Assembly (NCBI RefSeq): GCF_965363235.1
Contig: NC_134851.1
Coordinates: 50,844,833-50,908,832 of the forward strand
Length of the DNA: 64,000 bases
Direction of reading: 5' to 3'
From: Mytilus galloprovincialis
Lineage: Eukaryota > Mollusca > Bivalvia > Mytilida > Mytilidae
Positions 8,151-51,520 of this stretch are shown piece after piece (position 1 is the first letter of the stretch; the number at the start of each line of letters is the position of its first letter). Position numbers and translations under genes: made by a program. The notes beneath the pieces were generated by a model. The model made no database searches. It was not told where the DNA came from and saw nothing but the letters and a program-made list of their open reading frames with translations.

Positions 8151-8195
8151 TGGATGCGACATGATTTTGACCATAACCAGAAATACTCTACAATA

Positions 8196-8259
8196 ATGGT
8201 TAGCTACATGTTACCAGTGGACTTTGGTCAGAATAGTTTATATAATTCAACTTCACCAG
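8196..8259 (+). CDS. alternative first coding exon of the nuclear receptor (distal)
   Basis: ATG at 8196 has A at -3 and G at +4 and opens 21 codons plus one base: MVSYMLPVDFGQNSLYN, then STSP. A consensus donor (CAG|GTAAGC) follows at 8260. The exon ends in phase 1, exactly as the other first exon (12294-12354) does. Joining to the common exon at 17358 keeps frame and completes an Asp codon. An in-frame ATG at 8154 has a poor start context, and the frame is closed by a TGA at 8136, so 8196 is preferred. This is inferred from the start, donor and phase; no transcript was seen. If real, it gives the receptor a second A/B-domain N-terminus, a common layout among NR1 receptors such as E75. Confidence 0.5.
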
Positions 8260-8736
8260 GTAAGCTTTTTAATATTTATCTGTTATTTGTTTTAAAATTA
8301 CCTTTTTGATTTCTTGGGAATTTTTAATTTTAGTTGCTACTTATGTTGGTTTCTGTTAATGATTTGGTCCTATGACTTGAAAGCTGATTTGATATAATGA
8401 AATGTTTAATACAGCTTAAAACATTTAAATGTATTAGTACAGTGCATTGGGGTTTTAACAACTTGTGTCTTTTCTTATCAGTCCTCATTTGTAAATAAAA
8501 TGATGAAACCTTTGATTATCATTTATGAATAAACAACATCAAAAACTTCTCAATGGTCAAACAACATGGACAAGTGTGGACATAGCACCAGGTGTTTCTT
8601 GCAATATATTTTGACAATTTTAGGATAAACATTGCTCAATATTGAGATTGTATTAAGACATGGTTTCATTGTCTGTATATAAAATACTATGTTAAGACAA
8701 TAAAGTATAACAGGAACTATCAAGAATACTGGAAAG

Positions 8737-9372
8737 TACAACAATCCACAAAAACCTCTAACATGTGACTCCACACAGTACACCAATCCTCAAAAACCAC
8801 CAACATGTGACTCCACACAGTACACCAATCCTAAAAAACCACCAACATGTGACTCCACACAGTACAACAATCCACAAAAAACCTTCCAACATGTTTCTCC
8901 ACACAGTACAACAATCCACAAAAACCTCCCAACATGTTTCTCCACACAGTACACCAATCTACAAAAACCTCCCAACATGTGACTCCACACAAGACAACAA
9001 TCCACAAAAACCTCCCAACAGGTGACTCCACACAGTACATCAATCCTCAAAAACCACCAACATGTGATTCCACACAGGACAATTCACAAAAAACCTCCCA
9101 ACATGTGATGCCACACAGTACAACAATCCATAAAAACCTCTCACAACATGTGACTCCACATAGGACAACAATCCACAAAAACCACCAACATGTGACTCCA
9201 TGCAGGACAACAATCCACAAAAACCTCTAACATGTGACTCTTCACAGTAAACCAGTCCACAAAAACCTCTAACATGTGACTGCACACAGTACAACAATCC
9301 ACTAAAACCTCCACACAATACAACAATCCACAAAAACCTCCGACATGTGACTCCACACAGGACAACAATTAA
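8737..9372 (+). repeat. minisatellite, unit about 44 bp
   Basis: About 14 units of CATGTGACTCCACACAG, TACAACAATCCACAAAAACC and TCCCA, with several length variants. It sits about 480 bp after the donor of the distal first exon, inside the presumed first intron. Open frames on both strands across 8765-9368 are repeat read-through. Confidence 0.9.
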
Positions 9373-9448
9373 AAAAAACCATCAAAATTGTAGTTCTCTT
9401 GTAATACAAATTGGGGAGGCAAAAAAAAACAAAGGGACATTTAAACTC

Positions 9449-10361
9449 GGTCCTACTAAAAAGCGCCCGGGAAAAGAAAAAGCGCCCGGGGAAAAGAAAG
9501 AGCGACCGGAGAAGGAAAATTAGCGCCCGGAGAAGAAAATTAGCGCCCGGGAGAAGAAAATAATAATATTTTATAACAATATCTTTTTTCCTTATAAATA
9601 ACTAATCATTGCTTGTTTTGTCCTTAATATAAATGGGGATATGTATGATGCTACATATAAAGTGTTGTTGTACTTTTACATTTTAGATTTCAAAATTGTA
9701 TATTAAAGTAAGTAAATAAATATAAATAAGAGTATATAGAAGAATCATGAAAGACATTGTCCTCGATCAAAATGTATATTTTGTTACTAAAAATAATCGG
9801 TGCCAGAGGTCTAATATTTTCGCAACGGCATGGTGAACACTTTTAATACAGATGCTGAGATAGATTTATTATATCTTTTTATAAAACTAAAACTGTTTCA
9901 ATGGCTATGGTTTACGGGGGTTTTAATGCTTAGACTTAAATTTAAACCAAACTTCTGCTTTTTACCCCCTTGTTTTAACTACGGTACATATTGTTTTTGA
10001 AAAACATGTCTTTTGATGTCTTACATGTTATAAATCTTCCGCATAAACTGTGATCCATTATTATCAGTCTTTCGAAATAGTATTCATATATTATTGTTAA
10101 AATTGAAATATTCATACTTGTTTTTGTGCTTTATTACAAACTCATATATTATCTGAATTGGCAAATTACTAGTCTAAAATGAAAAAAAAATCAATTTTCA
10201 TAACTTAACAAAGGTGTCTCATGCCAATAAAATATAAATATATTTTCCCCGGGCGCTTTTTCTGTTCCCCGGGCACTATATTTTCTTCTCCGGGCGCTTT
10301 TTCTTTTCCCCGGGCGCTTTTTCTTCACCCGGGCGCTCCCGGGCGCATTTTAGTAGGACCC
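9449..10361. mobile_element. fold-back element with tandem-repeat termini
   Basis: The ends are GGTCCTACTAAAA (9449) and TTTTAGTAGGACC (to 10360). Each end continues into several roughly 20-bp subrepeats of AGCGCCCGGGGAAAAGAA, in opposite orientation on the two sides (9460-9560 and 10245-10345). The middle of about 680 bp is AT-rich and non-coding. The flanks TTAAACTC (9441-9448) and TTAAAACTC (10362-10370) look like a target-site duplication with one extra base. This is the layout of fold-back transposons. Confidence 0.75.
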
Positions 10362-10429
10362 TTAAAACTCAAAAACTAGTTAAGCCATGGCGAAAAAAGT
10401 AAGAAAACAACAGTATGCAAAACACAATA

Positions 10430-12100
10430 TAGAGGACTGGGTGACACAAACCTCACATTAAACTAGGGGTGATCCCTACAATATAGAGGACTGGGTGACA
10501 CAAACCTCACATTAAACTAGGGGTGATCCCTACAACATAGAGGACTGGGTGACACAAACCTCACATTAAACCAGGGGTGATCTCTACAACATAGAGGACT
10601 AGGTGACACAAACCTCACATTAAACCAGGGGTGATCCCTACAACATAGAGGACTGGGTGACACAAACCTCACATTAAACCAGGGGTGATCCCTACAACAT
10701 AGAGGACTGGGTGACACAAACCTCACATTAAACCAGGGGTGATCCCTACAACATAGAGGACTGGGTGACACAAACCTCACATTAAACCAGGGGTGATCTC
10801 TACAACATAGAGGACTGGGTGACACAAACCTCACATTAATTTAAACCAGGGGTGATCCCTACAACATAGAGGACTGGGTGACACAAACCTCACATTAAAC
10901 TAGGGGTGATCCCTACAACATAGAGGACTGGGTGACACAAACCTCACATTAAACTAGGGGTGATCCCTACAACATAGAGGACTGGGTGACACAAACCTCA
11001 CATTAAACTAGGGGTGATCCCTACAACATAGAGGACTGAGTGACACAAACCTCACATTGAACCAGGGGTGATCCCTACAACATAGAGGACTGGGTGACAC
11101 AAACCTCACATTAAACCAGGGATGATCCCTACAACATAGAGGACTAGGTGACACAAACCTCACAATAAACCAGGGGTGATCCCTACAACATAGAGGACTG
11201 GGTGACACAAACCTCACATTAAACCAGGGGTGATCTCTACAACATAGAGGACTGGGTGACACAAACCTCACATTAATTTAAACCAGGGGTGATCCCTACA
11301 ACATAGAGGACTGGGTGACACAAACCTCACATTAAACCAGGGGTGATCTCTACAACATAGAGGACTGGGTGACACAAACCTCACATTAAACTAGGGGTGA
11401 TCCCTACAACATAGAGGACTGGGTGACACAAACCTCACATTAATTTAAACCAGGGGTGATCCCTACAACATAGAGGACTGGGTGACACAAACCTCACATT
11501 AAACCAGGGGTGATCTCTACAACATAGAGGACTGGGTGACACAAACCTCACATTAATTTAAACCAGGGGTGATCCCTACAACATAGAGGACTGGGTGACA
11601 CAAACCTCACATTAATTTAAACCAGGGGTGATCCCTACAACATAGAGGACTGGGTGACACAAACCTCACATTAAACCAGGGATGATCCCTACAACATAGA
11701 GGACTGGGTGACACAAACCTCACATTAAACCAGGGGTGATCTCTACAACATAGAGGACTGGGTGACACAAACCTCACATTAAACCAGGGGTGATCTCTAC
11801 AACATAGAGGACTGGGTGACACAAACCTCACATTAATTTAAACCAGGGGTGATCCCTACAACATAGAGAGAGGACTGGTGACACAAACCTCACATTAATT
11901 TAAACCAGGGGTGATCTCTACAACATAGAGGACTGGGTGACACAAACCTCACATTAATTTAAACCAGGGGTGATCCCTACAACATAGAGAGAGGACTGGT
12001 GACACAAACCTCACATTAATTTAAACCAGGGGTGATCTCTACAACATAGAGGACTGGGTGACACAAACCTCACATTAATTTAAACCAGGGGTGATCCCTG
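10430..12100 (+). repeat. 54-bp minisatellite upstream of the proximal first exon
   Basis: About 30 units of ACATAGAGGACTGGGTGACA, CAAACCTCACATTAAACC and AGGGGTGATCCCTACA. Variants include a unit with an extra TTTAA (ATTAATTTAAACC) and one with AGAGAGAGGACTGGTG, arranged partly in higher order towards the right. It ends about 190 bp before the ATG at 12294. On the minus strand the unit reads as 18 codons, giving long but artefactual open frames. Confidence 0.92.
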
Positions 12101-12293
12101 ATGAACAAACTAAGACAAAGGAGTGCACATGGTTAAAATTACCTGACTCAAAATTAGGTAGGCTTACAACTGTTATATGTTTATCATTTTCCTTTTCCAC
12201 TCTTGGCCCTTATTAAAAGTAAAATTCTATATACAAAATCTTCTTTGGTGTTATGAACAAAATTATCACGAACTTGCGCAAAAAGAATTAAAG

Positions 12294-12354
12294 ATGGCAC
12301 TTGCTTTGGAAAATCAGGATCAAGATTTTTCTCTACTACTGGAAACTAGCAAAG
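12294..12354 (+). CDS. nuclear receptor, proximal alternative first coding exon
   Basis: ATG at 12294 in context TTAAAGATGG (A at -3, G at +4) gives [20 protein letters not shown] plus one base, then the donor AAAG|GTAAGC. The frame is open further upstream to 12177, but that part (phenylalanine-, leucine- and tyrosine-rich) looks like non-coding AT sequence. The internal ATG with good context is therefore chosen. Phase 1 matches the acceptor exon at 17358. Confidence 0.7.
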
Positions 12355-15300
12355 GTAAGCCACAATTGATCAAGAATGAATCATGCTGAATGAGATGTAA
12401 ACTTTGGATAATCTTGCTGATCAAAACACAATGAGACAGACTATATATGGTCTCTAACTGATTAAAATTGGTCTTTCTATAATATGTATACCTATTTCAA
12501 TAGTTCAGTTATTTTTATATAAAAGGAGAAGACAATTTGTTTTTGCTTATTTTACTCAGTTTACTGATGGAAATAAACAAAATTGGATACTATTATTGGT
12601 GAAATTTTTAACCTGCTAGATAGAGGACTTTTCAAAATAGCAAATAGGTTAGTCTTTGACTTTTTAAATGATATGCCTATATTGCCAATGTACCCAATAT
12701 TAGAAAAAGCTGATTTAAGAACATTCTACCCAAAACTGGTATAGAGCAGTAAAGCTAATTATTTTCCAGATTCTACCCTCTCCTTTAGCAAATAATTAAT
12801 TGTGTTTAAAAAATTAAAAGACCCACTTATTTGATGTAGTTCATAGTATTTTATGTAAAAATCAATTTAGTGGTTCAGTGTTCCATGTGATAAGGAACGG
12901 CACAGTTTTTTATCAAGCCATTTCCTTGTGCTATACAAAATGTTAAATGGCACACTTTAAGAAAATGGTTAATACTTAGTGCAATGTACCTAGTTAAATG
13001 GTAGTTTTTTAAGAGCTAGCGCCTACTGCAGGATACCATGTTGAATGACACGTGTGGTGTACAAACACAGATAATATAATAAAAAAGTTGAAAATTTATG
13101 ACTTTTTCTGAAAACATTTATGGTTCAAATTAAGAATTTGTATTCTCAATCCACATGTCCTTATTTTTAAAACACTTAAAATAGATAATAATCAGTTAAT
13201 AAAGTTGATGTGAAGTGTTGTTTGATATAAATATGCGCCACATCTTCTTTTATTCATAACCTTTATTCCTGCCGTAGCTTTTTGTCTCATTGACATATAG
13301 CCTCACATCATCTTTTTTTTTTTATAACCTTTGCTCCTCCTTCAGCTTTTGTCTCATTAATATCTATGTTAAGGGTCATTTACTGAAGCTTCTGATATTA
13401 TAACCCTGAAAAAGTCTGAATTGCTCAAAATGTAATACAACATTGAGAATATTGTGCTCATTGAAAATACTCATTTGGTTGATTTTGGTTTCCCATTTTT
13501 ATATGTTATGTTATTGGACAATGGTCAAAGATGCAGCGGAGGATCCAGCCATTTTAAAAAGGGATGGTTCCCAATCCAGAGTAAAGGGGGGGGTTCCAAC
13601 TATATGCTCCCATTCAAATGCATTGATCGTCCAAAAAAAGGGGGGGTTCCAACCCCCGGAACACCCCCCCCCCTGGATCCTCCAATGAAGATGTCATCTC
13701 AACATCTATAACTACTGTGGATTCATTTATTTTTTGTGGGTACCAATTTTTGTGGATTACGGAAAACTTGCATGTTCTTGGATATTTAATTTATTGGTTT
13801 TGCAAAAGTCTGATATAGCTGATGGAAAAATTTGTTATTGTTGAACATTGAATTTCCCATGAAAGCCAGAAAACTTAGTATCCAACGAATAATAACATGA
13901 ATAAGGAGTCCACAGTATTGTAATTTATTGTATAGCAATATAATATTTCCCACAGAAAGTAACCAAAAGTTAGAGTGCAATAAATTCCAATATTGCACTA
14001 GTGCAATAAATTTTCAAATTCATGACGTCATCAACGTCAAATTCTTAGTATAAACCAATTTTTACTTCCAAATATTATATTGCTATACATTAAAAGGGTT
14101 ATTGCATGAATATTGGGGAATATTGTCCCTCGTAGAACATATATTGCACTCACAAGCTCGTGCAATATAAAATTCTACTCAGGACAATATTCCCCAGTAT
14201 TCATGCAATAACCCTATAATATAAGATATTCAAAAATTTATAGTAAAAAAATGGTTGTAATATCTGAAAGATAATGATTAGTTTAATAAGAGACATATAT
14301 TTTATCATATATGTGTTTCTGGTTCAATAAATTCCTCCTTTTCATCAGCTCTGTCACTTAGGTCAGGATGACCTACTACTTGTGTCATGTCACCCTAACA
14401 TCTCTACTTATATGAAACAAAACATAACTGTTCGCTAGTTTACCTTTTTGGCTAAAAATAATATTTGATGACATGAGGGAAGATCTCAAACATGTTTTTT
14501 ACATGAGAAATGAGGTCAGTTATTGATTAATGGGACAAAGAAGTAAATAAGTGCTTATGTGTCCTTGTAATACCTTTACAGGTCAATTAGGGAGAAATGA
14601 TTAAATAATACTTCAATAATAATAAAGTCACTTTATATGTTAGTAGTAAAAGGATTGTTGTAGGGATTAAAATGTAGACAGTAAAGGGGGGACAATATAC
14701 AAGGAGGAAGTGACAGAAATGACCTTGAATTTGTATCATATCATTGGCTGAGACAAATAGTTAATATTTAATGAATGTTACCATGAAAATGGCTTTTTTG
14801 ATGTGTATTTCTTTTCTCATAATAAATGCATTAAAGCCAAATAGCTGTTTTCTTTGATCTTTTCTTTGTTAAATGTAACTGTACTGATAAATATACAACA
14901 GATTATAGTACAATCAATCGCCAACGAGTTCATTAAAGACAAAAATTATAATGTAAAATCCATAAGTGAAATGAATCGAATTAAAGAGGGTGGTGATGGT
15001 AAAATTAATAAATCAATGAACCACTGGAGTGGACATGTAACCCATATAATCGTACAACCTTCTTGCACCATACATAGTAATAAACATTGAGTCAATGTGA
15101 TCATGTCAGAAACATCAATTATTTTTACCCCTCACCTACCTTGAGTCACCTACTGTGATTTGAACTCTTTTTGATCATCACTTTTTTGCCCTTTAATTTG
15201 ATAAATGTTGCATAACAAATCACTAATGTATACCTTTATATATAGGATATAGATTTAAATTCTCTGACATTATGTCTAGCCTGTTAATGACGTTAATTAC

Positions 15301-18300
15301 TTTATCAGGAAAGTCTTTACTTTTGAATTTTCAATATTGCGAAATGTAGGAAATATGAATTCATCTAAGAATTTTTTTTTTAATGTCTCAAAATTTAAAA
15401 AGGTAATTTAACAATAAAGTAATTGTTAAATAATTGAATATAAGAACTAAAAACTACCACTGCAATTTTTTTTATAAAAAACACCTGTTATTTACAACTG
15501 AAATCTTTTAATTTAAAAACAATAATTACCACATTCCGAACTCTGAATTAAGTTAGATGCATGTAAATTTCAACTCATGCACAATACAATTTTTTTTTTA
15601 ATACTAGAACCCAAACTTACAAACAGACTTCAAATTTTGGCAGTGAGTCTCTTTTATTACTGTTCTATAGAGTTATATCATGTAAATGCCCTGTTATAAC
15701 TTGAAATTGCATTTTTTTTTAAATTTGCACATGCTAACTAATATTTTTCTCATCCAAATTTCATGAAACTATAATACACAATACCCTTCCCTAGATTTTC
15801 CATCAAACATGATGGAATTTTGTGATGGAACACTTAATGCCGCCAAATTCCATCAGTTGATGGAGTATTGGAACAACTTTCCATCAACTTTCCATCAATG
15901 CTGGAAAATGGTTGATGGAAATTGTTTGATGGAAAACTGATGACATAATTTCCAACTGATGGATAATTGATGGTATTTTTGCCATCTGATGGATAATTGA
16001 AAATTACATGTAAAATGATGGAAACTTGATGGAGAATCGACCATCAGATGGAAGCATATTCTGTGATTTAATAAAACATTGTATTTGTTCTCTGTCATCT
16101 ATAGGTACACCTGTTACATGTGTGTATCGTTTAGTTCAGTGCATGCCCTATTGAACTTTCCTTAAAGTTGAATTTGTTGATGGGAAATTCTGCAAAATAA
16201 AAAAATATTAATAAAATAGATTTGGTATGATTGCCAATGAGACAACTCTCCACAAGAGACCAATTTTTTATGACACAAAAAATATTCATATAAATTATTA
16301 TAGAATAATGTAGGACAGGAGTCATATTTTGTTTCATTTTAAAACATTATTTGTTTTATAAAATAGAACTTCTAATAAAGTAATCTTGCTATAAAATTAG
16401 AGATCTGTGGTATGACAGACAATAAGACATTTATATATTCACAAATGACAAAACAATATATCTTTATATATACATGTATAGTATGTACACTACCCACCAA
16501 AATTAATATCTAAACAGGGCCATTATGTTAATAGTACATTTTTGTACAATGATTATGAAAAAAACAAATATTGAACAAAAAAAGAAAGGACAACCTCTTT
16601 AGATATTGCCCCTGCAAGTGACACATTTATACAAATTTTTTGAAAAAGTGTTATTTTCATTTGACAATTTCAGAATTGAGTACGAATGTAACTGCAACTA
16701 ACTTTATATCTTTATAATTTCAACTAATTCTTTTATATGCTTGATTCTTTTACTTTTATTTTGCAGAATTTCCCATTAAAAAATTCAACTTTAAGGACAG
16801 CAAGTTCAATAGGGCATGCATTGAACTAAACGATACAAACATGTAACAGGTGTACCTATAGATGACAGAGAACAAATACAATGTTTTATTAAATCACAGA
16901 ATATGCTTCCATCTGATGGTCGATTCTCCATCAAGTTTCCATCATTTTACATGTAATGGAAAATATTCCATCAGTTAAAATGTTCCATCAATTATCCTTC
17001 AGATGGCAAAAATACCATCAATTATCCATCAGATGGAAATCATGCCATCAGTTTTCCATCAAACAATTTCCATCAACCATTTTCCAGCATTGATGGAAAG
17101 TTGATGGAAAGTTGTTCCAATACTCCATCAACTGATGGAATTTGGTGGCATTTGTTCCATCACAAAATTCCATCATGTTTGATGGAAAATCTAGGGAAGG
17201 GTCTAAGGAGTCATGAAATCATTTCTGAAAGAAAAAAGACTAAGACACTAGCTATAGGAGCCATGAAATAATCGACTGAGACACTAGTTCGTAGGAAAAT
17301 ATCACAAATTTGAGTATTGAATATAACAATATTGAATGGTCCCTTTTTATCTTGCAGATTTTCCGATGGATCAAGATTATTTTGAGAATATAATGATGGA
17401 TTTTAATGGAAGACCACAGGAACCACAATCATTATCTGGAAGTGGAGATTCATTGTCATCATATCCATCACCAAACCAACCAGGTTCACCTGTTGCCATA
17501 GTTACATCTACAGAAGATATTCAGGTGTCGTCTGCTTCTGATGAACGAGTTCAAAAATCAAAACCATACAACAAAAGGGTAAGAGACAACAACCCAACCA
17601 AAGATTGAATGCTTAGTATTGATTGATTCATTGTTGGTATCTAAACTGCACTCTCTGCACAATTTGCAGGTCAGGTTATTTTTTGTTTGTTTGAGCTAGA
17701 TTCCAAAAAGAAAAGAATCAAACTTAGGCAGGAAAACTGACAATCCTATAAAAAAAATGAAGATTTGGTATGATTGTCAATGAGACAGCTCTCCACAAGA
17801 GACCAAATAACACAAAAATTAACAACTGTTCTATAGGTCAATATAAGGCCTTCAACAATGAGTAAAACCCATTCTGCACAGTCGGCTATCAAAAAGCAGA
17901 GTAGGCTTTGCAGGGTACTTATACAACTAATAGACACTGAAGACAGATCTGAGAGGACTCAAAGATACATGCACTGACAACTAGTTGACTGGAGTCCAAT
18001 ACATGTGCAATAGACCACTCAACCACTGAGGCATACTGCTAAAATAAAATTTGTCATATATATTGATATATGACTAGATAGAATAACCTACATTTAAATG
18101 AATTTTATTTAATTTTTCAGTTACCACCTCCGAAACAACTATATACAACAGAGCTTGCTGTATTGTGTAGAATTTGTGGTGATAAAGCCTCAGGGTTCCA
18201 TTATGGAGTACATTCATGTGAAGGTTGTAAGGTTAGTAGAACTTTTGATAGTAACAGACTGTAGGTCTCTTGTTTCTATAAATGCAGTATTAGTTCCTCG

Positions 18301-21300
18301 TATAGTGTAAAAATCTGTCTGAGTTAACTCAGAAATTGTTGCAAAAAGGTAGTAAAATACTTTTAAAAATATGCTTACGTCGTTTTTTTAATCTTTTAAG
18401 CTTTTTACATAATTGTCTATATTGATGTGATAATTTTATGGACATGAGTTACTTCCCTTTTGATTTATAGTACATTTTTCAAGCATGCTTTTCAACCATG
18501 TTTTTGCGTTAGAGCCATTTCAATATTTCGATTTCTAAGTTTCTCTTTTGTACCTGTTTTTATATGTCTTCTTGATTGCATTTTTCAAAAGAAAATAAAT
18601 AATAAGTACAGGGTTTTCTTAAATTTTTTACAATGCTTTTAAGAGAGGAGTATGCTTTGTCTGCTTAAATATTTTCAAATGTATTGCAAGTATTTTTACA
18701 TAGTTAAATGTATTTGCAGGGATTTTTTAGAAGGACCATAAAGAAAAACTTGGTGTATAAGCCATGTCGAGCACTGAAACAATGTAAGCTGTCATTAGGA
18801 TCCAGAAATAAATGCCAGCACTGCAGATTTCAGAGATGTTTACGGGCAGGGATGTCTCAGGATGGTAAGTTTATATCTTAACCATGGTTGAATTAGACCT
18901 TGATATGGATGCAATGAAAATCTGGTAAAAATATGAGTGACAAGAAGCCATTTATCATATCTCTCATTACATGTTAATTTCTATCTTTCAGCCTCAAAGT
19001 CATATAAAGAATCCAAGCAAATTAATATGGTCAAAGCAAATTACTGAAATCCAAACAAATTACTATACTCCAAACAAATTACTTGTATCCAAGCAAATTA
19101 CAATTACCCAAATAGATTACTATTATCAAAGTGAATTACAATTACCCAAATAGATTACTATTATCAAAGCGAACTACAATTATCCAAATAGATTACTATT
19201 ATCAAAGTGAATTACAATTACCTAAATAGATTACTACTATCAAAGCGAATTACAATTATCCAAATAGATTACTATTATCAAAGCGAATTACAATTACTCA
19301 AATAGATTACTATTATCAAAGCAAATTACAATTACCCAAATAGATTACTATTATCAAAGCAAATTACAATTACCCAAATAGATTACTATTATCAAAGCGA
19401 ATTACAATTACCCAAATAGATTACTATTATCAAAGCAAATTACAATTACCCAAATAGATTACTATTATCAAAGCGAATTACAATTACCCAAATAGATTAC
19501 TATTATCAAAGCGAATTACAATTATCCTATTAATGTCATTTTGCTCATTACTTAATGACTTTTGAAGATTTAATTATTATCTTTCTTTTAATTGCAGCTG
19601 TAAGATTTGGAAGAATGCCAAAAGTTGAAAGAGAAAAGTTAATGGCTGACAAAGAAGAATTGGAAGAAAACAGCAGTGTGAGGATACTAGAGTTACGATC
19701 TATAACAGATATTATAAAACAATCATTTCATCAACATGTTGTGGAAATTCTACTCAAATTCAATGGCGGGGATGAAGATAAACAAGTGAGTATCTGATAT
19801 CACAATTAGTTTACTAAATTATCATAAAACAAGTTAGTATCTGATATCACAATTAGTTTACTAAATTATCATAAAACAAGTTAGTATCTGATATCACAAT
19901 TAGTTTACTAAATTATCGTAAAACAAGTTAGTATCTGATATCACAATTAGTTTACTAAATTATCATAAAAACAAGTTAGTGTCTGATAGCACAATTAGTT
20001 TACTAAATTATCATAAAAACAAGTTAGTATCTGATAGCACAATTAGTTTACTAAATTATCATAAAAACAAGTTAGTATCTGATATCACAATTAGTTTACT
20101 AAATTATCATAAAAACAAGTAAGTATCTGATAGCACAATTAGTTTACTAAATTATCATAAAAACAAGTTAGTATCTGATATCACAATTAGTTTACTAAAT
20201 TATCATAAAAACAAGTTAGTATCTGATATCACAATTAGTTTACTAAATTATCATAAAAACAAGTAAGTATCTGATAGCACAATTAGTTTACTAAATTATC
20301 ATAAAAACAAGTTAGTATCTGATATCACAATTAGTTTACTAAATTATCATAAAAACAAGTTAGTATCTTACTCATTGCTATTAGATACTTGCTTTGTTTT
20401 TCTTTGATAATTTGTCCGTCTGTCCGTCTGTCCGATAGCACAATTAGTTTACTAAATTATCATAAAAACAAGTTAGTATCTGATAGCACAATTAGTTTAC
20501 TAAATTATCATAAAAACAAGTTAGTATCTGATAGCACAATTAGTTTACTAAATTATCAAAGAAAAACAAAGCAAGTATCTAATAGCACAAATGGTTTATC
20601 AAATCATCTTAAAATTTCTAGTTAGATCTGTTAAAAGATTAATTTCACTGCTATTAGAAGTTCTTCCGAAAATTCTGTGATGGTGATAAACAAATTTGTA
20701 TAATGCTCCATAGAATACAAAACAGATTATTTCTACTACAGTAATAGTAAAAAACTGGTTTAGTTACTAGTCCTTTCAGATTGTTACGTTTGTCTTTCGA
20801 TTTTTATACGCCCGTCGTCTTTTAGACGGGACATATTATGGTATACTGTTGTCCGTCCGTCTGTCCGTCCGTCCGTCTGTCTGTCCGTCTGTCCGTCCGT
20901 CCGTCCGTCCGTCATCCGTCGTCCACACTTCGGACAATAACTCAAAAACACTTTCACCAATTTCCATGAAACTTAAGTGAATTGTTTATATCTATTGACG
21001 TAAGCTCCCTTTCGTTTTTTTTTAATTTCAGATTTTAAGTTTTGGATTTATGGGGCTTTATTCATAAAAAAGGGGGGATTTTCAACACTTCGGACAATAA
21101 CTCAAAAAGGCTTTCACCAATGTCCATGAAACTTAAGTAAATTGTTTATATCTATTGACGTAAGCTCCTTTTGTTTTTTTTTAATTTCAGATTTTAAGTT
21201 TTGGATTTATGGGGCTTTATTCATAAAAAAAGGGGGATTTTCAACACTTCAGACAATAACTCAAAAAGGCTTTCACCAATGTCCATGAAACTTAAGTAAA

Positions 21301-24300
21301 TTGTTTATATCTATTGACGTAAGCTCCTTTTCGATTTTTTTTTATTTCAGATTTTAAGTTTTGGATTTATGGGGCTTTATTCATAAAAAAAGGGGGATTT
21401 TCAACACTTCGGACAATAACTCAAAAAGGCTTTCACCAATGTCCATGAAACTTTGTTGAATTGTTTATATCTATTGATGTAAGCTCCCTTTCAATTTTTA
21501 TAAATTTCAGATTTTATGTTTTTGATTTATGGGGCTTTATTCATAAAAAAAAGGGGGATTTTCAACACTTCGGACAGTAACTCAAAAAGGCTTTCACCAC
21601 TGTCCATGAAACTTAAGTGAATTGTTTATATCTATTGATGTAAGCTCCCTTTCAATTTTTATAAATTTCAGATTTTACATTTCCGTGTTATGAATTTTTA
21701 TGCTTAAAAAATGGGTGATTTTCCAATTTTGGCCCAATAACTAACACTTTCACAAAATTTTATGCAACTTTGATAAATTGTTTATATCTATTGACATAAG
21801 CTCCCTTTCCATTTTTATAAATTTTAGATTTTACGTTTTCTTAAGTAATGAATTTTTATACTTAAAAAAGGGGGATTTTATGAAACTTTGGTGAATATAT
21901 TAATGTAACATCCCTTTTGATTTGTATATATATTTCTAGTTGATCATATAAATTCATTTAAAGCATAAAAGACAAGTTAAAAGAGCAACGGGCGTATCAT
22001 GCACTAAAGCGCAGCCCTTTATTTGTTAGTTGTTTGGTTTGCTTTGTTTCGATCTAATGAGTTTAGCCTTTTCATCTAAATTTCATTTTGATAAAAATAT
22101 TAACAGAAACTAAATTATTGCAATGGATGAGACAGAGAACCTGGAAAAATATTTTAAACTAAGTTTCTTTTCTAGGAGAGCAAAGATATTTTGATAAACC
22201 GACTTGAATCGGAGGAAGATTTTGAGAATTGGAAGATTTATGTCAAATATCAGGAAGTAGTGCTGCCATTAATGGAGGGAGCTGTAAGATTTGCTAAACA
22301 ACTACCTGGATTTTTGGAGCTATCAACCTATGATCAGATAACATTAATGAAGCAGGCATCTATGTCTGTTGCTATAGTAGCGGTAAGTCTGCTAAATGCA
22401 GATGCATTATGGGTTAAAATATTTAAGTGCTTAGGGAAATTGTATTGAAGCAAAAATATATATTTTTTTTTGGAAAAGCCCTAAAAACAAAAGGATAAAT
22501 TGAATAAAGTCTCAGATAAACTGATCATAATTAGAAACTTCTCTAACATCAGCTCTTATAATCTTACTCAGAACAAAAATCATTGGCTTTATATTGGAAA
22601 TGAAAGGTTATGTTTTATAAACTGAAACTTTTATTACTGTAAAGAATATTCTATCTACCTTATATTTGTAACATTTGGAGATTGATTAGATAAGCAAAGG
22701 TTTAAAGACCCATTATAATTTAACTTATTTACCAAAATTTGGAAAGATTTAAGGTGATATCTAACACTTTCACTAAAATCAATTTGGCTCATTTAATTTT
22801 CATAAAATTTTGACAAAGTAATTACTTTGGCCCTTTGACAAAAATATAAAAATTTCAAAAAATTTGAACCAACCATTTTATCAGAAAAATTACACTGGTT
22901 GTATAGCAGTTTGACAAACACTAATTTTGATCATTGAGAAGCTTAATATTCTCTTAACAACGCAACGTAGTTAAAACGTTCAGCTGATTTTACAGAGTTA
23001 TCTCCCTGTAGTGTTAGGTACCACCTTAAGGTACACAATCAATAATACAATTCCCCCAAATTCAAAAAAGAATATTTTTTTTGTCACAATGTACAGAAAC
23101 GTTACCCATAGTAACTGATAACTGTTTGTGCATGATATTAAATCCTTCTCAATCAATTATGTGAAAAATAAAAATTTCATTATTTTTTTTAGATGAGTCC
23201 ATTAGTGGAAGATGTGAAATTTAAAATTCCTGGAATGGAGATGAATTTAATCCTCAACAAAAGTTTGCTAGAAGAATGTAGGATTGTCCGACAACTTTTT
23301 GGTCAGATTTGGAAGTTTTACGAAAAGTTGAAGAAATTTGAACTGCTACAATCCGAGATTTCCTTGTTTTGTGCCACACTTTGTTTCTCAGGTAAGTAAC
23401 CATCTACAATTCAGGATAAATATAGATTGTTCACCTCACTATTGATATTGAAATTTTCAGTTGACAAAAGTGAGTTCCCATTAAAAAAATGTGCTATCAT
23501 TTCAACTAAAATTGTTATTTTTCAAAAAAATATTACCAATTGACTTTTTGGGCGATTTTTAGAATTAAGATAACATAAGATGTAGAAATGTCTGAAATTT
23601 TATTGTTTGGCCATAATTTTTGTGTTTTCTGAATGGTTAAATGCATAAGCAAATTTTTAGGATTTTAATTTTGTTAGAATATTTTTCACAGAAAATCCTT
23701 TTCTTCAAACTTTCCCAGAAATATTTGTCTTTGTGTTAATTAAAATTAGTCTGAATAAATAATAAAGCTTTAAACATTTCTACATCTTTTGGTATATATT
23801 TCATAAGAATCAGTCATGTAGTGACTTGGAAATATTTTTTTCAAGTGAGAACTCACTTTTGTCCACTGACTGTATTATAGGTCTTTTTCAATTGAGTGAA
23901 AATAAATCAGAATCATGAGGCGGATCCAGGGGGGTTTCGGGGGTTGGAACCCCCCTTTTTTTGGCCGATCAATGCATTTGAATGGGAGCATATAGCTGGA
24001 ACCCCCCCTTTACTCTGGGTTGGGACCCCCCCTTTTTAAAATGGCTGGATCCGCCCCTGAAGTTCATATGAAACTAGTTTATTGTAGCTACATGTATAAT
24101 GTTATCCATATCATTGAACCAAGGGGGAATACTGTTTTACCCTGTTTATATTTCTGTTGTCCCATAAAATTCTTAGGCACTGCAAATCAGAGCTTCTGGA
24201 AATTTGATATCTGTCATCATGTAAACATGCTATAACATGTTATGCAGTGTTATTCATTTATTTTCATGTTTCGGTTTTTCAGAATACAAGTAACTGCCAT

Positions 24301-25661
24301 ATATATGATATTTTCCTTGCAATCTTCTGGTGAACTGTGATTAGTTTCCTTAAACATGTGTTAAATGTAATCAGACATCCTACAGAGGCATGCAATTCAG
24401 TATGATGCATTTTTAGTTCTATAATTTATCAACCTCCTGTTTACTGATTACTGATATATTCTATAATTTATCAACCTCCTGTTTACTGATTACTGATATA
24501 TTCTATAATTTATCAACCTCCTGTTTACTGATTACTGATATATTCTATAATTTATCAACCTCCTGTTTACTGATTACTGATATATTCAAACATATGTAGC
24601 GGCCATGTATTGATGTTTTTTGTCACAATTTTGTAGAAGCTACAATTTAGAACATCCTGAAAGAAGTAGGGGCATTAAGGCCTAGTTTTGGCCCAAGAAA
24701 ATAAAATGTTTGATAACTATTTCAAATTGGCACATAATGTTTAGAAATTCATAGGGTCAAGAAATATAAATAAAAAACATAAAGATTTTTATCTGATGAC
24801 GTCACAATTACGTCATAATGTGTACTTTTTTCACAAAAACGATGAAAAATACAGAACTTATGCAGTTTTCTATCTGTATTTCCGTTGTGGAAACATCCTG
24901 CGCAGCCGAGAAACAACAAAATAATTTAACAGAAGCTTTATTATATCTATGGGCATAATCTCACCAAAAATAAAGTTGTTTCTTGGGTACACACATACTT
25001 TTTCAATCTAAAATATACTTAAAATTTGATGAAAAACAAGGAAAATCATGAGATTAAACAAAATATGCAAATTAAGTCATGATTTGTTGCCATGGTAACG
25101 TGTTCGATGTCAAATTTGTTTTGTTTTTCTTAGTACCTTAATACCTAAGTCAAGTTTTCAGTAATTTAAGAATATGTATGATAACTTCTAAATTTGCAGT
25201 AATTTTTGGGCCAAATAAGGGCCTTATTGCCCCTACTCCTTTGTTTTCATGCTTCATGTGATCATTATTTACTGTGTGATATACTAAACTACTGATAATA
25301 ATTATAATGTTTGTAATTTCATAATAATAAGAAACAATTTTTTTTCACAGAAAATCCTTTTCTTCAAAGTCCAATAGAAATAGACAAAATACAACAAGAT
25401 CTACTTCAAGCTTTGAGAATCGAATTGAAACACAATCATCCAAAACAACGCCACTTATTTCCCAATCTTGTTATGCTGGTCACAGATCTTCGCCAAGCTG
25501 TTGAGGCATTTGGACAAAACATCAGAATTGGGATCATTGACAAATCAAAGGATTTGTCTGTGATCCCAATTCTGATGTTTTGTCCAAATGCCTCAACAGC
25601 TTGGCGAAGATCTGTGACCAGCATAACAAGATTGGGAAATAAGTGGCGTTGTTTTGGATGA
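12294..25661 (+). CDS. NR1-type nuclear receptor (PPAR/E75/Rev-erb-like), 8 coding exons, C-terminus disrupted
   Basis: Spliced exons 12294-12354, 17358-17578, 18121-18231, 18720-18864, 19598-19785, 22176-22382, 23193-23391 and 25351-25661 join in frame into 480 residues. The product should be a ligand- or haem-regulated nuclear transcription factor. Residues 1-109 form a Ser/Pro-rich A/B region. Residues 110-176 are the C4 zinc-finger DNA-binding domain, with Cys at 110, 113, 127 and 130 and then 147, 153, 163 and 166, and P-box CEGCK. The stretch [15 protein letters not shown] follows as the C-terminal extension. The ligand-binding domain runs from about 230 and has the signature FAKQLPGF (281-288) and DQITLMK (295-301). 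By eye the last exon is closest to PPARs, but the D-box has five residues (C-RALKQ-C) where PPARs have three, so I do not assign an orthologue. The AF-2 helix is lost through an inverted duplication in the last exon. Confidence 0.9.
12400..13530. other. receptor intron sequence, nothing recognised
   Basis: AT-rich intron. Two imperfect pieces at 13240-13345 resemble each other (CATCTTCTTTTATTCATAACC and its neighbour), suggesting a small old duplication. No exon or element ends are seen. Confidence 0.4.
13533..13684 (+). mobile_element. short element with GGATCCAG / CTGGATCC ends
   Basis: Ends are GGAGGATCCAGCC and CCTGGATCCTCC, with G-runs and C-runs inside and ATGCTCCCATTCAAATGC near the middle. 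The same element lies in reverse orientation at 23918-24058. Two overlapping short open frames here read through the element. Confidence 0.7.
13715..13915. mobile_element. MITE with CTGTGGATTCATTTAT ends
   Basis: The left end is CTGTGGATTCATTTATTTT and the right end GAGTCCACAG, both flanked by TA. Relatives lie at 26614-26824 and 37302-37489. The TA flanks and about 200 bp length fit a Tc1/mariner-type MITE. Confidence 0.7.
13929..14215. repeat. two nested or adjacent inverted repeats
   Basis: A 20-bp perfect inverted repeat (TGTATAGCAATATAATATTT, 13929-13948, complement at 14070-14089) is followed at once by a second with 34-nt arms (14095-14128 and 14182-14215, one mismatch) around a 53-nt loop. 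The second looks like a small hairpin MITE ending in AGGGTTATTGCATGAA. Confidence 0.75.
14220..15780. other. receptor intron sequence, nothing recognised
   Basis: AT-rich. A short palindrome at 14288-14322 (AGAGACATATATTTT…ATATGTGTTTCT) belongs to a loose set of similar hairpins at 1828-1862 and 42287-42321. A 78-codon open frame at 14854-15090 has no family signature or flanking splice sites that would support it. Confidence 0.4.
15783..17202. mobile_element. large fold-back element (arms about 420 bp) in the receptor intron
   Basis: The left arm (15783 to about 16195) begins ACCCTTCCCTAGATTTTCC. Its inverted copy (about 16755-17202) ends GGAAAATCTAGGGAAGGGT. Both arms are full of GATGGAA/TTCCATC words and share a long stretch with ATCACAGAATATGCTTCC and the sequence around AGGTGTACCTATAGATGAC. 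The 560-bp middle contains a retroelement-tail fragment (16219-16263, minus). The right end lies 155 bp before the acceptor of the common exon 17358. Confidence 0.8.
17358..17578 (+). CDS. nuclear receptor common A/B-domain exon
   Basis: The acceptor TTTTTATCTTGCAG precedes it and the donor AGG|GTAAGA follows. It encodes residues 21-94, beginning [18 protein letters not shown] and continuing as a Ser/Pro/Gln-rich low-complexity stretch ([19 protein letters not shown]) that ends SKPYNKR. It is the first exon shared by both putative starts. A/B regions of this kind carry the weak AF-1 function and are poorly conserved. Confidence 0.8.
17761..17889 (-). repeat. retroelement 3'-tail fragment
   Basis: Minus-strand copy of the CATTGTTGAAGGC…TGGTATGATTGTCAATGAGAC family (here AGATTTGGTATGATTGTCA to GGCCTTCAACAATGAG on the plus strand). 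It lies in the intron before the first zinc-finger exon. Confidence 0.7.
18121..18231 (+). CDS. nuclear receptor exon: first zinc finger
   Basis: Encodes residues 95-131, with four zinc-binding cysteines (CRIC at 110-113; C127 and C130) and P-box CEGCK. The acceptor is ATTTAATTTTTCAG and the donor AAG|GTTAGT. The intron between CEGCK and GFFRR is a classical conserved nuclear-receptor splice position. The P-box is of the type that binds AGGTCA half-sites. Confidence 0.95.
18720..18864 (+). CDS. nuclear receptor exon: second zinc finger
   Basis: Encodes residues 132-179, starting [16 protein letters not shown]. The cysteines at 147, 153, 163 and 166 form the second finger. The D-box loop C-RALKQ-C has five residues, the usual number outside PPARs. 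It ends [11 protein letters not shown], a typical NR1 helix. Donor is GATG|GTAAGT, phase 1. Confidence 0.95.
18985..19525 (+). repeat. 40-bp minisatellite in the receptor intron
   Basis: About 12 units of AAAGCGAATTACAATTACCC followed by AAATAGATTACTATTATC. It ends about 70 bp before the acceptor of the next exon (19598). The left edge is more diverged. Confidence 0.9.
19598..19785 (+). CDS. nuclear receptor exon: C-terminal extension and hinge
   Basis: Encodes residues 180-242: [20 protein letters not shown], then an acidic, helical hinge ending FNGGDEDKQ. AVRFGRxPK is strongly typical of NR1 receptors (PPAR, Rev-erb, E75). The acceptor is TCTTTTAATTGCAG. The donor CAA|GTGAGT is the first unit of the minisatellite that follows. 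Confidence 0.93.
19781..20620 (+). repeat. 47/48-bp minisatellite founded on the exon's splice donor
   Basis: About 16 units begin exactly at the exon end. Each contains AAACAAGT(T/A)AGTATCTGA and TCACAATTAGTTTACTAAAT. The GT that corresponds to the true donor (19786) is kept at 19833, 19880, 19927, 19975, 20023, 20071, 20119, 20167, 20215, 20263, 20311, 20359, 20472 and 20520. Units at 20119 and 20263 read GTAAGT, a better match to consensus than the native GTGAGT. Confidence 0.93.
20376..20587. repeat. 38-nt perfect inverted repeat inside the minisatellite
   Basis: The segment at 20376-20413 (TGCTATTAGATACTTGC…) is the exact complement of 20550-20587, with 136 nt between. The right arm is a changed repeat unit, so the left arm looks like an inverted copy placed into the array. 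A short CTGTCCGT run (20413-20435) adjoins the left arm. Confidence 0.85.
20803..22024 (+). mobile_element. pearl/Helentron-like tandem-core element, copy A (receptor intron)
   Basis: The left end is TTATACGCCCGTC, with a small hairpin CCCGTC…GACGGG. A CCGT-rich microsatellite (20852-20920) follows, then about five 159-bp core units (CTTCGGACAATAACTCAAAA to TTTATGGGGCTTTATTC). The right end is CAACGGGCGTATCATGC with AAAGCGCAGCCCTTTATT. Copy B is at 52254-53678. An ACGG-type microsatellite plus roughly 160-bp cores resembles the bivalve 'pearl' elements. This is recognition by layout; there was no database match. Confidence 0.75.
22176..22382 (+). CDS. nuclear receptor exon: LBD helices 1-5
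   Basis: Encodes residues 243-311 and holds the family signature FAKQLPGF…L…YDQITLMKQ, which forms part of the coactivator groove and ligand pocket. The acceptor is GTTTCTTTTCTAG, the donor GCG|GTAAGT, and both ends are phase 0. Confidence 0.93.
22751..23028 (-). mobile_element. MITE with AAGGTGGTACCTAACAC ends
   Basis: It runs from AAGGTGATATCTAACAC to GTGTTAGGTACCACCTT. A second copy in the opposite orientation is at 33038-33314. The roughly 280 bp interior is non-coding. Confidence 0.8.
23193..23391 (+). CDS. nuclear receptor exon: LBD middle helices
   Basis: Encodes residues 312-377 plus one base: [18 protein letters not shown] through [15 protein letters not shown] and CATLCFSG. The pattern ELxxSExxLFxAxxLxS is typical of LBD helices 7-8. 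The acceptor TATTTTTTTTAG and donor CAG|GTAAGT are strong. Confidence 0.92.
23458..23876. mobile_element. MITE carrying a copy of the last exon's splice acceptor
   Basis: Ends are CAGTTGACAAAAGTGAGTTC and GAACTCACTTTTGTCC…ACTG. A second inner inverted pair is AGATGTAGAAATGT / ACATTTCTACATCT. At 23682-23709 it contains 28 nt identical to 25341-25368, the pyrimidine tract, AG and first 18 bases of the receptor's last exon. Splicing to it would add [14 protein letters not shown] and ten more codons before TAA (23760-23762), with AATAAA at 23754 and 23761. Confidence 0.75.
23918..24058 (-). mobile_element. GGATCC-ended element, inverted relative to 13533-13684
   Basis: Starts GAGGCGGATCCAGG and ends CTGGATCCGCCCCTGA. 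The C/G runs and GCATTTGAATGGGAGCAT inside are the reverse complement of the copy at 13533. Confidence 0.75.
24418..24585 (+). repeat. four-copy tandem repeat, 41-bp unit
   Basis: Four almost identical units of TTCTATAATTTATCAACCTC plus CTGTTTACTGATTACTGATA. Their near-identity implies recent origin. Confidence 0.9.
24666..25237. mobile_element. MITE-like element with AGTAGGGGCATTAAGGCC ends
   Basis: Left end AGTAGGGGCATTAAGGCC, right end GGCCTTATTGCCCCTACT, about 570 bp, non-coding inside. It lies in the intron just before the last receptor exon. Confidence 0.75.
25351..25661 (+). CDS. nuclear receptor last exon: LBD C-terminus with inverted duplication
   Basis: The acceptor is TTTTTTTTTCACAG. 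It encodes residues 378-447 in good LBD sequence ([37 protein letters not shown]). After DKSKDLS the reading enters a 124-bp insert that is the reverse complement of the preceding exon sequence, and it stops at TGA 25659-25661. Immediately after the insert, frame +1 reads DTAPLIKEMFNI and stops at TAG 25720-25722. LIKEMF fits the AF-2 helix 12 pattern and the end of PPAR-type receptors. Without the 124 bp the receptor would be 459 residues with an intact AF-2. As printed it lacks AF-2 and should not recruit coactivators normally. Confidence 0.9.
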
Positions 25662-25672
25662 TTGTGTTTCAA
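25425..25672. repeat. 248-bp hairpin palindrome inside the last receptor exon
   Basis: Arms of 122 nt (25425-25546 and 25551-25672) with only two mismatched pairs (25537/25560 and 25538/25559) and a 4-nt AAAG loop. The 16-nt word TCAAAGGATTTGTCTG occurs at 25545-25560 and again at 25669-25684, marking an insertion of 124 bp. Confidence 0.97.
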
Positions 25673-25724
25673 AGGATTTGTCTGACACTGCACCATTAAT
25701 CAAAGAAATGTTTAATATATAGAA

Positions 25725-51060: not shown

Positions 51061-51138
51061 CCGCTCAGTTCGTCTTGTCTCTACATATCAATTATTGTTA
51101 GATTGATGTAGAATTGAGTTAAAAAAAAGGAAAGAAAT

Positions 51139-51520
51139 ATGGAAGACGGCGAAAAGAACAAAGACATAGATGTTGTGAAAACAAGCGAAATAAGTGTTAT
51201 CGAAAAAGATGAAAATGACAATTTTGAAAGCCACCGAAAGTTGTCTGTATCGTCTATATCATCTTCGTTGTCGCACGAGAGCGTCTCAAATGCGTTTTCA
51301 CGAGCCACTGACACTTCAGATATGCGACTGATTGTCGAAGGGAAACCTTTATACGTTTCCAGATTAGTTTTGTCCATAATTTCACCAGTTTTTAAGGAAA
51401 TGTTTGAAAGACGTGCCAGGGAATTATCACTGTTTGAAATTCCACTTTCTGGTCGAAAATATGATGAAATGTTGGAATTCTTGTACAGTGTTTATCCTGA
51501 CAGTTTAAAACCTATTTCAG
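51139..51520 (+). CDS. BTB gene exon 1
   Basis: ATG at 51139 in context AAATATGG, with A at -3 and G at +4, after an AT-rich leader. It encodes residues 1-127 and the first base of an Asp codon. The frame stays open past the donor to 51642, but the GTAAGA donor and the good continuation in the second exon argue for splicing there. Confidence 0.87.

Follow-up and report, generated by a model that had tools for sequence, protein, structure and literature searches.

The PPAR gene and the content of the window

The window, a stretch of 64,000 nucleotides from Mytilus galloprovincialis, contains a nuclear receptor gene with eight coding exons at 8154-25722, which we identified as a PPAR (NR1C-like) receptor gene (Table 1). 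The product was matched by the Pfam domains zf-C4 (E 1.2e-27) and Hormone_recep (E 2.9e-11), and both the zinc finger and the ligand-binding domain are common to this gene, human PPAR gamma (3dzu_D) and mollusc PPARs. The top solved chain in the PDB, by sequence, was PPAR gamma (198 bits), followed by RAR beta (173), and the top fold match of the structure model was also PPAR gamma. Named mollusc matches were mostly called PPAR and a few NR1D2-like. By sequence and by model, the gene appears to be nearer to PPAR than to other receptors. A search of NCBIfam with P0001, an uninterrupted PPAR from M. galloprovincialis, gave no match, but this library is prokaryotic and hence uninformative.

The 35 amino acids of exon 1 are identical to P0001. 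When the flanks of an insertion in exon 8 are joined, the gene encodes 474 amino acids, of which five differ from P0001, and the remaining exons, the splice sites and the frame are all intact. An old pseudogene is ruled out, since exon borders, frame and 469 of the 474 residues are preserved.

In the 331-contig assembly, the exon was found once, along with its own reverse copy, and neither a second copy of the exon nor a second PPAR gene was found. A protein search of the assembly yielded at least 57 matches, including nine inside this gene; the other 48 (a lower bound) fall within residues 61-207, which correspond to the DNA-binding region, and the best is at most 47% identical. The single exon locus and the restriction of the other matches found to the DNA-binding region led us to reject an intact second gene elsewhere in the genome.

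Table 1. Features of the PPAR gene and of the insertion in its last coding exon (positions within the window)
Feature	Position	Strand	Evidence
PPAR coding exon 1, start codon per P0001 reading	8154..8259	+	tblastn with P0001 N-terminus; donor CAG|GTAAGC
PPAR coding exon 2, A/B domain	17358..17578	+	AG/GT borders, open joined frame
PPAR coding exon 3, first zinc finger	18121..18231	+	joined frame; zf-C4
PPAR coding exon 4, second zinc finger	18720..18864	+	joined frame; zf-C4
PPAR coding exon 5, hinge	19598..19785	+	joined frame
PPAR coding exon 6, ligand-binding domain	22176..22382	+	joined frame; Hormone_recep
PPAR coding exon 7, ligand-binding domain	23193..23391	+	joined frame
PPAR coding exon 8 with 124-bp insertion, native stop at end	25351..25722	+	joined frame
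Left (native) palindrome arm, helix 10/11 code	25425..25546	+	inverted-repeat match, structure model
Natural inverted repeat GACAAATC-AAAG-GATTTGTC, putative fold-back seed	25539..25558	.	sequence
16-nt direct repeat, copy 1	25545..25560	+	sequence
Right palindrome arm	25551..25672	+	inverted-repeat match
Native TG, last bases copied before first switch; opposite TT at 25537-25538, giving both mismatched pairs	25559..25560	+	arm match, reconstruction
Reverse-copied segment, exact reverse complement of 25425-25536 (112 nt)	25561..25672	+	reconstruction
TGA stop of shifted frame, after 33 new residues	25659..25661	+	frame reading
16-nt direct repeat, copy 2	25669..25684	+	sequence
Native gene end past insert (AF-2 helix PLIKEMF, stop TAG), out of frame	25685..25722	+	joined frame

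A near-perfect palindrome in the last exon

The original prediction described a near-perfect palindrome of 248 bp in the last exon, with two mismatches between arms of 122 nt, an AAAG loop and the same 16-nt word on both edges, and all of these elements were recovered. The loop is located at 25547-25550 and the mismatched columns at 25537 and 25538, while the pairing ends at the arm borders with no further match outside. The two copies of the word, TCAAAGGATTTGTCTG, have a spacing of 124. The RNA fold of the palindrome has a predicted energy of -225.1 kcal/mol, as compared to -59.4 +/- 4.8 for 200 shuffled sequences.

We scanned 264 kb, consisting of the 64-kb window and 20 randomly drawn 10-kb pieces of this genome, with low-complexity arms left out of the list, and the palindrome was the sole inverted repeat with arms of at least 100 nt and a loop of at most 20 nt. 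The random sample covers 200 kb, and the genome-wide rate is thus poorly bounded. One other long inverted pair was encountered (112 nt at 96%, with a spacer of 223 nt).

No RNA family was identified at the gathering score in a search of Rfam over the window. Below this score, three miRNA models match the hairpin, the best with 72.8 bits as compared to the 130 needed, which we take as a structural echo of the kind that any long hairpin may give.

Effect on the receptor

The frame is lost after Ser462, from where 33 new residues replace the native end. The shifted frame stops at 25659, as predicted, the helix-12 reading PLIKEMF lies intact just past the insert, and the joined translation demonstrates that the frame is restored when the 124 bp are left out. 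In the structure model, helix 10/11 is located at residues 428-451 and helix 12 at 466-471; the shifted reading therefore retains helix 10/11 and loses helix 12. The predicted loss of the AF-2 helix is thereby supported in an otherwise intact gene, and the window's reading lacks the helix 12 that is present in all 28 aligned relatives.

The truncated receptor would keep both its DNA-binding domain and helix 10/11, which usually forms the dimer surface, and could bind DNA and its partner without activation. With its stop codon in the final coding exon, the message should be spared junction-dependent decay. The product may act in a dominant-negative manner, as suggested in the original prediction; truncations of the ligand-binding domain of human PPAR gamma provide a precedent (PMC1821092).

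None of the 112 copied pairs differs, which gives a 95% upper bound of 2.6% on the divergence. This is near the mean heterozygosity of 1.73% reported for M. galloprovincialis (PMC7653742), and the event thus appears to be young, although gene conversion could also produce identical arms and would void the estimate. Since no other PPAR gene was found in the assembly, an intact allele most likely segregates alongside the one with the insert, which is probably a segregating loss-of-function allele.

Origin of the insertion

A single event with two switches rebuilds the 124-bp insertion exactly, with no base left over. In this reconstruction, copying proceeds to 25560, runs back from 25536 to 25425-25429 and resumes at 25545-25549 via a microhomology of 4 nt, the final four nucleotides of the reverse-copied segment (TCAA) being common to the resume point. 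There are five equivalent placements, which differ solely within the 4-nt homology. The sequence thus consists of a prefix, the exact reverse complement of a nearby segment and a suffix, as the four-point model of template switching has it. The ancestral state was taken from P0001, a relative protein that lacks the insert. Of the suggested 124-bp inverted self-copy, the size of the insert stands; according to the reconstruction, however, it is composed of two parts, a reversed copy of 108-112 nt and a second forward copy of 12-16 nt. A transposon or MITE is ruled out, as the insert is the exon's own sequence.

Both mismatched bases correspond to native downstream bases, which remained at the 3' end when the hairpin folded back. 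The window contains 51 hairpins of the seed type, and 0.25% of its positions lie 0-3 nt after one, a figure that was calculated post hoc. Together with the exact reconstruction, it supports the proposed two-step template switch from the natural 8-bp inverted repeat.

We consider it likely that the palindrome is a real and recent template-switch or fold-back mutation that arose in one event. In the proposed mechanism, copying of the + strand would run to 25560, where the hairpin GACAAATC-AAAG-GATTTGTC would allow the nascent 3' end to turn back on itself, the two terminal bases remaining unpaired or in wobble pairs (T against T, G against T). The folded end would then be extended along the strand just made, to 25425-25429, before detaching and re-entering the original template at 25545-25549 through the TCAA match. 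The outcome would be the 124-bp insertion, with the frame shifted after Ser462 and the AF-2 helix exchanged for unrelated residues. These steps are read from the sequence, while we infer the polymerase and the timing. Copying of the bottom strand, as worked out by hand, would have 4-nt homology at the first switch and none at the return, and is less economical.

Some observations count against the template switch. The copied 112 nt are far longer than the median of 12 nt in 1503 gold-standard short-range template switches from great apes, for which the maximum is 128 nt (PMC7954356). The event is seen in one assembled sequence. Protein databases searched with the new tail gave no match that carries it, which is weak evidence since clusters at 90% identity may hide one; in one of the searches, two matches covered 75% and 73% of the query piece.

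Alternative explanations

The same product could have been generated by another pathway, in which the resected 3' end of a double-strand break folds over at the 8-bp inverted repeat and, once extended, detaches and is joined to the other end. This is the foremost alternative, albeit a somewhat unlikely one. In yeast, foldback inversions associated with breaks span 2 to about 150 bp and use an inverted microhomology that is 10 bp long, imperfect and located 2 nt from the break (PMC11724301), and the 8-bp repeat in the mussel ends 2 nt before the switch, in agreement with this geometry. The 16 bp present on both sides would, however, require a staggered break or a sister template. Moreover, the last 2 nt are trimmed in the yeast model and kept, unpaired and extended, in the mussel, which speaks against a break and against a template switch alike.

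It is less likely that the palindrome is an artefact, and we consider it rather improbable that the consensus took up a fold-back chimera formed during library construction or amplification, or an error of assembly or polishing. Chimeras of this type usually turn only once and extend over long stretches, but here the copy comes back to the precise site within 124 bp, and microhomology is present where it re-enters. A chimera would also have to be present in the reads that made the consensus, and the structure is the only one of its kind in the 264 kb. Conversely, the palindrome breaks a conserved and apparently single-copy receptor, which one would not expect in a living animal except in the heterozygous state, and the reconstruction was made on the consensus. 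The consensus of published mussel assemblies is imperfect, with a QV of 32.4 in one published case that is not known to be this assembly (PMC11304980).

That the change is fixed and tolerated, either because the PPAR of this lineage functions without AF-2 or because the reversed copy is spliced out, is extremely unlikely: a GT-AG pair at 25560-25674 nearly coincides with the reversed copy and would, by removing 115 nt, yield an in-frame receptor with three additional residues (DLS), but its donor fits the U1 consensus at 4 of 9 positions, as compared to 7-9 in seven native donors, its acceptor ends in AAAG, both sites lie inside the 122-bp hairpin, the stretch has 15 GT and 7 AG, so that some frame-restoring pair is likely by chance, and the AF-2 leucine and glutamate are invariant in all 28 aligned PPARs.

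Implications

If the template-switch mutation is real, it provides a clean natural example of a fold-back of about 110 nt in which every switch point can be read, and in which one step both knocks out the activation helix of a regulator and makes a long perfect RNA hairpin. It would also provide biologists with a natural loss-of-function or dominant-negative PPAR allele in mussels, a genus used for monitoring pollutants that act through peroxisome proliferation, and with an animal test case for palindromes that silence their parent gene or revert. Should the palindrome be an artefact, the reference would be wrong at what is apparently its only PPAR gene and would need correction.

A further, highly speculative reading is that one copying accident created an allele that is both self-targeting and self-reverting. 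The message would carry a 122-bp hairpin with arms that match the intact PPAR message, and small RNAs derived from it could act in trans to silence the intact allele; the mussel allele would then be a newly born hairpin-RNA gene located within its target. Polymerase slippage between the 16-bp direct repeats could delete exactly 124 bp and restore the wild type, such that the allele could flicker in the germ line and soma.

Comparison with known mutation types

The event is of a known kind, with a length near the top of the published range, and published precedents cover both its length and its geometry. As in the four-point model described for apes, a reverse-complement copy is bounded by two switches, with point 2 ahead of point 1, which makes intra-strand copying possible, and point 4 precedes point 1, the class that is seen as one large insertion (PMC7954356). 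Compared to the ape events, the mussel copy has 108-112 nt and is located in a coding exon (PMC7954356), and the case comes from one sequence with the ancestry drawn from a relative protein instead of an outgroup alignment.

In the local foldback inversions described for yeast, as in the mussel, a short inverted repeat near a 3' end folds back and is extended; the return occurs via 0-5 bp of microhomology, as compared to 4 here, and in both cases there are 2 nt beyond the repeat (PMC11724301). The yeast loop has 41 nt as compared to 4 nt in the mussel, the yeast events are mostly shorter than 14 bp, and only the mussel event retains the terminal 2 nt and has 16 bp directly duplicated (PMC11724301).

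Small inverted triplications likewise have direct repeats that flank an inverted hairpin fragment of about 100-160 bp, but their direct repeats, of about 148 bp, are the inverted segment itself (PMC13334657). In the mussel, the direct repeat of 16 bp (25545-25560) is not the inverted segment (25425-25536), and the structure is thus an inverted duplication and not a triplication. Finally, the hairpin RNA locus hp58 of Drosophila simulans, which arose through inverted duplication of its target gene, has an inverted repeat made of an exon fragment and fully complementary to the parent gene, as does the mussel allele; the mussel repeat differs in that it lies inside the target exon itself (PMC10317233).

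The palindrome and the PPAR gene

The original prediction had described an inverted copy within the last exon of an unnamed nuclear receptor gene, and the arms, loop, mismatches and edge repeats were all re-found, exact to the base. The palindrome strand folds at -225.1 kcal/mol, as compared to a shuffled mean of -59.4, and is the sole inverted repeat with arms of at least 100 nt and a loop of at most 20 nt in the 264 kb scanned, made up of the window plus 20 randomly drawn 10-kb pieces of its genome, with low-complexity arms not printed. A 112-nt inverted pair in one scanned stretch (L018) falls outside this definition, having a spacer of 223 nt.

Judging from sequence and fold matches, Pfam domains (zf-C4 and Hormone_recep) and the uninterrupted Mytilus galloprovincialis protein P0001, named PPAR gamma by its source, the receptor is the mussel PPAR (NR1C-like). 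The similarity to P0001 suggests a host that is a Mytilus or closely related to one. The joins of all eight coding exons have AG/GT borders, and 474 amino acids are read with the insert left out, of which 5 differ from P0001. Human PPAR gamma is the closest solved chain by sequence (1.8e-57) and also by fold, with the P0001 model as query (1.5e-17).

Coordinates of the PPAR coding exons, the palindrome and other features in the window
Feature	Positions	Remarks
PPAR coding exons (n=8)	8154-8259, 17358-17578, 18121-18231, 18720-18864, 19598-19785, 22176-22382, 23193-23391, 25351-25722	
Palindrome arms	25425-25546 / 25551-25672	122 nt each
Palindrome loop		AAAG
Mismatched columns	25537-25538	
16-nt direct repeat	25545-25560 and 25669-25684	
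Minisatellite	10424-12099	first PPAR intron; 54-bp units, ~30 copies
38-nt inverted repeat	20376-20413 / 20550-20587	perfect; spacer 136 nt
~160-bp satellite arrays	20925-21839 and 52319-53593	same satellite; 31 kb apart; related flanks
MITE-like element	23457-23869	old
MITE-like element, arms	23457-23489/23836-23869	88%
MITE-like element, arms	23521-23608/23757-23844	75%
28-nt exact copy	23682-23709 = 25341-25368	
42-bp tandem repeat	24417-24587	last intron; four perfect copies
BTB open frame	51118-51642	Pfam E 5.9e-11
Second frame	53955-54410	no Pfam match

Other features of the locus

The intron preceding exon 8 contains an exact copy of the splice acceptor and first bases of that exon (local alignment score 56, as compared to 38 for the top of 300 resampled controls). 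Read as an exon, it gives 23 protein letters and then a stop, with AATAAA adjoining at 23754 and 23761, and it is possibly an alternative end lacking helices 10-12. It is enclosed by the MITE-like inverted-repeat element, of which no copy was found in 20 random 10-kb stretches; the element's arms look older than the exact 28-nt copy. The 38-nt inverted repeat, located inside a 48-bp satellite of intron 5, is perhaps another reverse-copy event. The four 42-bp copies are probably recent, since they are identical. The reverse strand of the minisatellite reads as INVRFVSPSPLCCRDHPWF repeats. The BTB frame is probably an exon of another gene, continuing near the second frame.

Origin of the insertion

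In a search across all placements of both switch ends, the observed sequence was reconstructed as native sequence (exon 8 without the 124-bp insert) to 25560, then the stretch from 25536 down to 25425-25429 in reverse complement, and native sequence from 25545-25549, with no base of the insert left over. The reverse-copied segment is thus 108-112 nt, and the five equivalent placements differ solely within TCAA, the 4-nt homology where copying rejoins the native sequence. The seed hairpin, GACAAATC-AAAG-GATTTGTC, is a natural 8-bp repeat; native TG, already copied beyond it at the fold-back, accounts for the two mismatched pairs (T opposite T, G opposite T). After removal of the 124 bp, the window has 51 hairpins as large or better, and 0.25% of its positions sit 0-3 nt after one, a criterion picked post hoc. 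The exact reconstruction and the natural seed lend good support to the two-step template switch of the original prediction. Break-repair fold-back would yield the same product and is only somewhat less probable as the pathway; such events are documented in yeast, where they start at an imperfect 10-bp repeat situated 2 nt away from the break and reach ~150 bp (PMC11724301).

By either pathway, a real mutation is the probable explanation. That a conserved gene is broken, and that consensus uncertainty is large in mussel assemblies generally, would suit an artefact, but this is unlikely, since the copying comes back to its exact place inside 124 bp through microhomology, the native TG is kept and such a structure is rare (one in 264 kb).

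Copy number and age

In the assembly (331 contigs, 1,384,861,812 bases), where the window spans C14:50844833-50908832, exon 8 was found once, besides its own reverse copy. P0001 matched at least 57 places, of which 9 are this PPAR gene and 48 fall between residues 61 and 207, a region in or next to the DNA-binding domain; among the matches listed, the highest identity outside the gene was 47% and none was an intact PPAR ligand-binding end. The assembly probably represents a single haplotype, in which case an intact allele carried by the other chromosome would be missed. The insert is probably a segregating allele.

None of the 112 reverse-copied pairs differ (95% upper bound on divergence, 2.6%). 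Mean heterozygosity in M. galloprovincialis is reported as 1.73% (PMC7653742), at which arms aged like an average allele pair would show no difference with a probability of 0.14. The event is therefore likely young, probably at most ~1.5 times as old as an ordinary allele, unless the arms were kept alike by gene conversion.

Predicted effects on protein and RNA

The frame shifts after Ser462, followed by 33 new residues and a stop at 25659. In the AlphaFold model of P0001, built with a 28-sequence alignment (pLDDT >90 in this part), residues 428-451 form helix 10/11 and residues 466-471 helix 12, so the truncated receptor is predicted to lose AF-2 but to retain helix 10/11 as well as the DNA-binding domain. 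Among 28 aligned PPARs, hand-picked from 120 listed matches, L467 and E470 never vary, and long insertions at this point are absent. Protein databases gave no protein carrying the new tail, although a 93%-identical variant could hide in the 12-sequence cluster of P0001.

Junction-dependent decay spares messages with a stop in the last coding exon, and should not act here. The message would carry a 122-bp double strand with the same sequence as the intact exon. Splicing of a GT-AG pair at 25560-25674 would drop the reversed copy and add only DLS, but is disfavored because the donor agrees with the consensus at 4 of 9 positions, as compared to 7-9 for native PPAR donors.

Comparison with known systems

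In human PPAR gamma, truncations of the ligand-binding domain and an AF-2 mutant are reported to block the wild type, whereas a cut in the DNA-binding domain does not (PMC1821092). By analogy, the mussel protein may be dominant negative, although the human truncations remove more. In Drosophila simulans, hp58 is a silencing hairpin built from an inverted piece of an exon of the gene it targets (PMC10317233). The mussel hairpin might act likewise, if mussels process such hairpins.

Plasmid-borne small inverted triplications are described as gradually lost in E. coli and yeast, restoring the original sequence, which is explained by polymerase slippage across the hairpin (PMC13334657). The 16-bp direct repeats flanking the mussel hairpin would, by analogy, invite the same precise loss. 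Assignment to that class was rejected, because the segment repeated directly differs from the one that is inverted.

In the terms of PMC7954356, the four-point order of the switch is 3-2-4-1. Because point 2 precedes point 1, the newly made strand could have served as its own template; events in which point 4 also precedes point 1 form a class described as one large insertion in appearance. Ape template-switch events are reported with a median length of 12 nt, the longest being 128 nt (PMC7954356), as compared to 108-112 nt here. The mutation belongs to a known class, is long for that class, and lies in a striking place.
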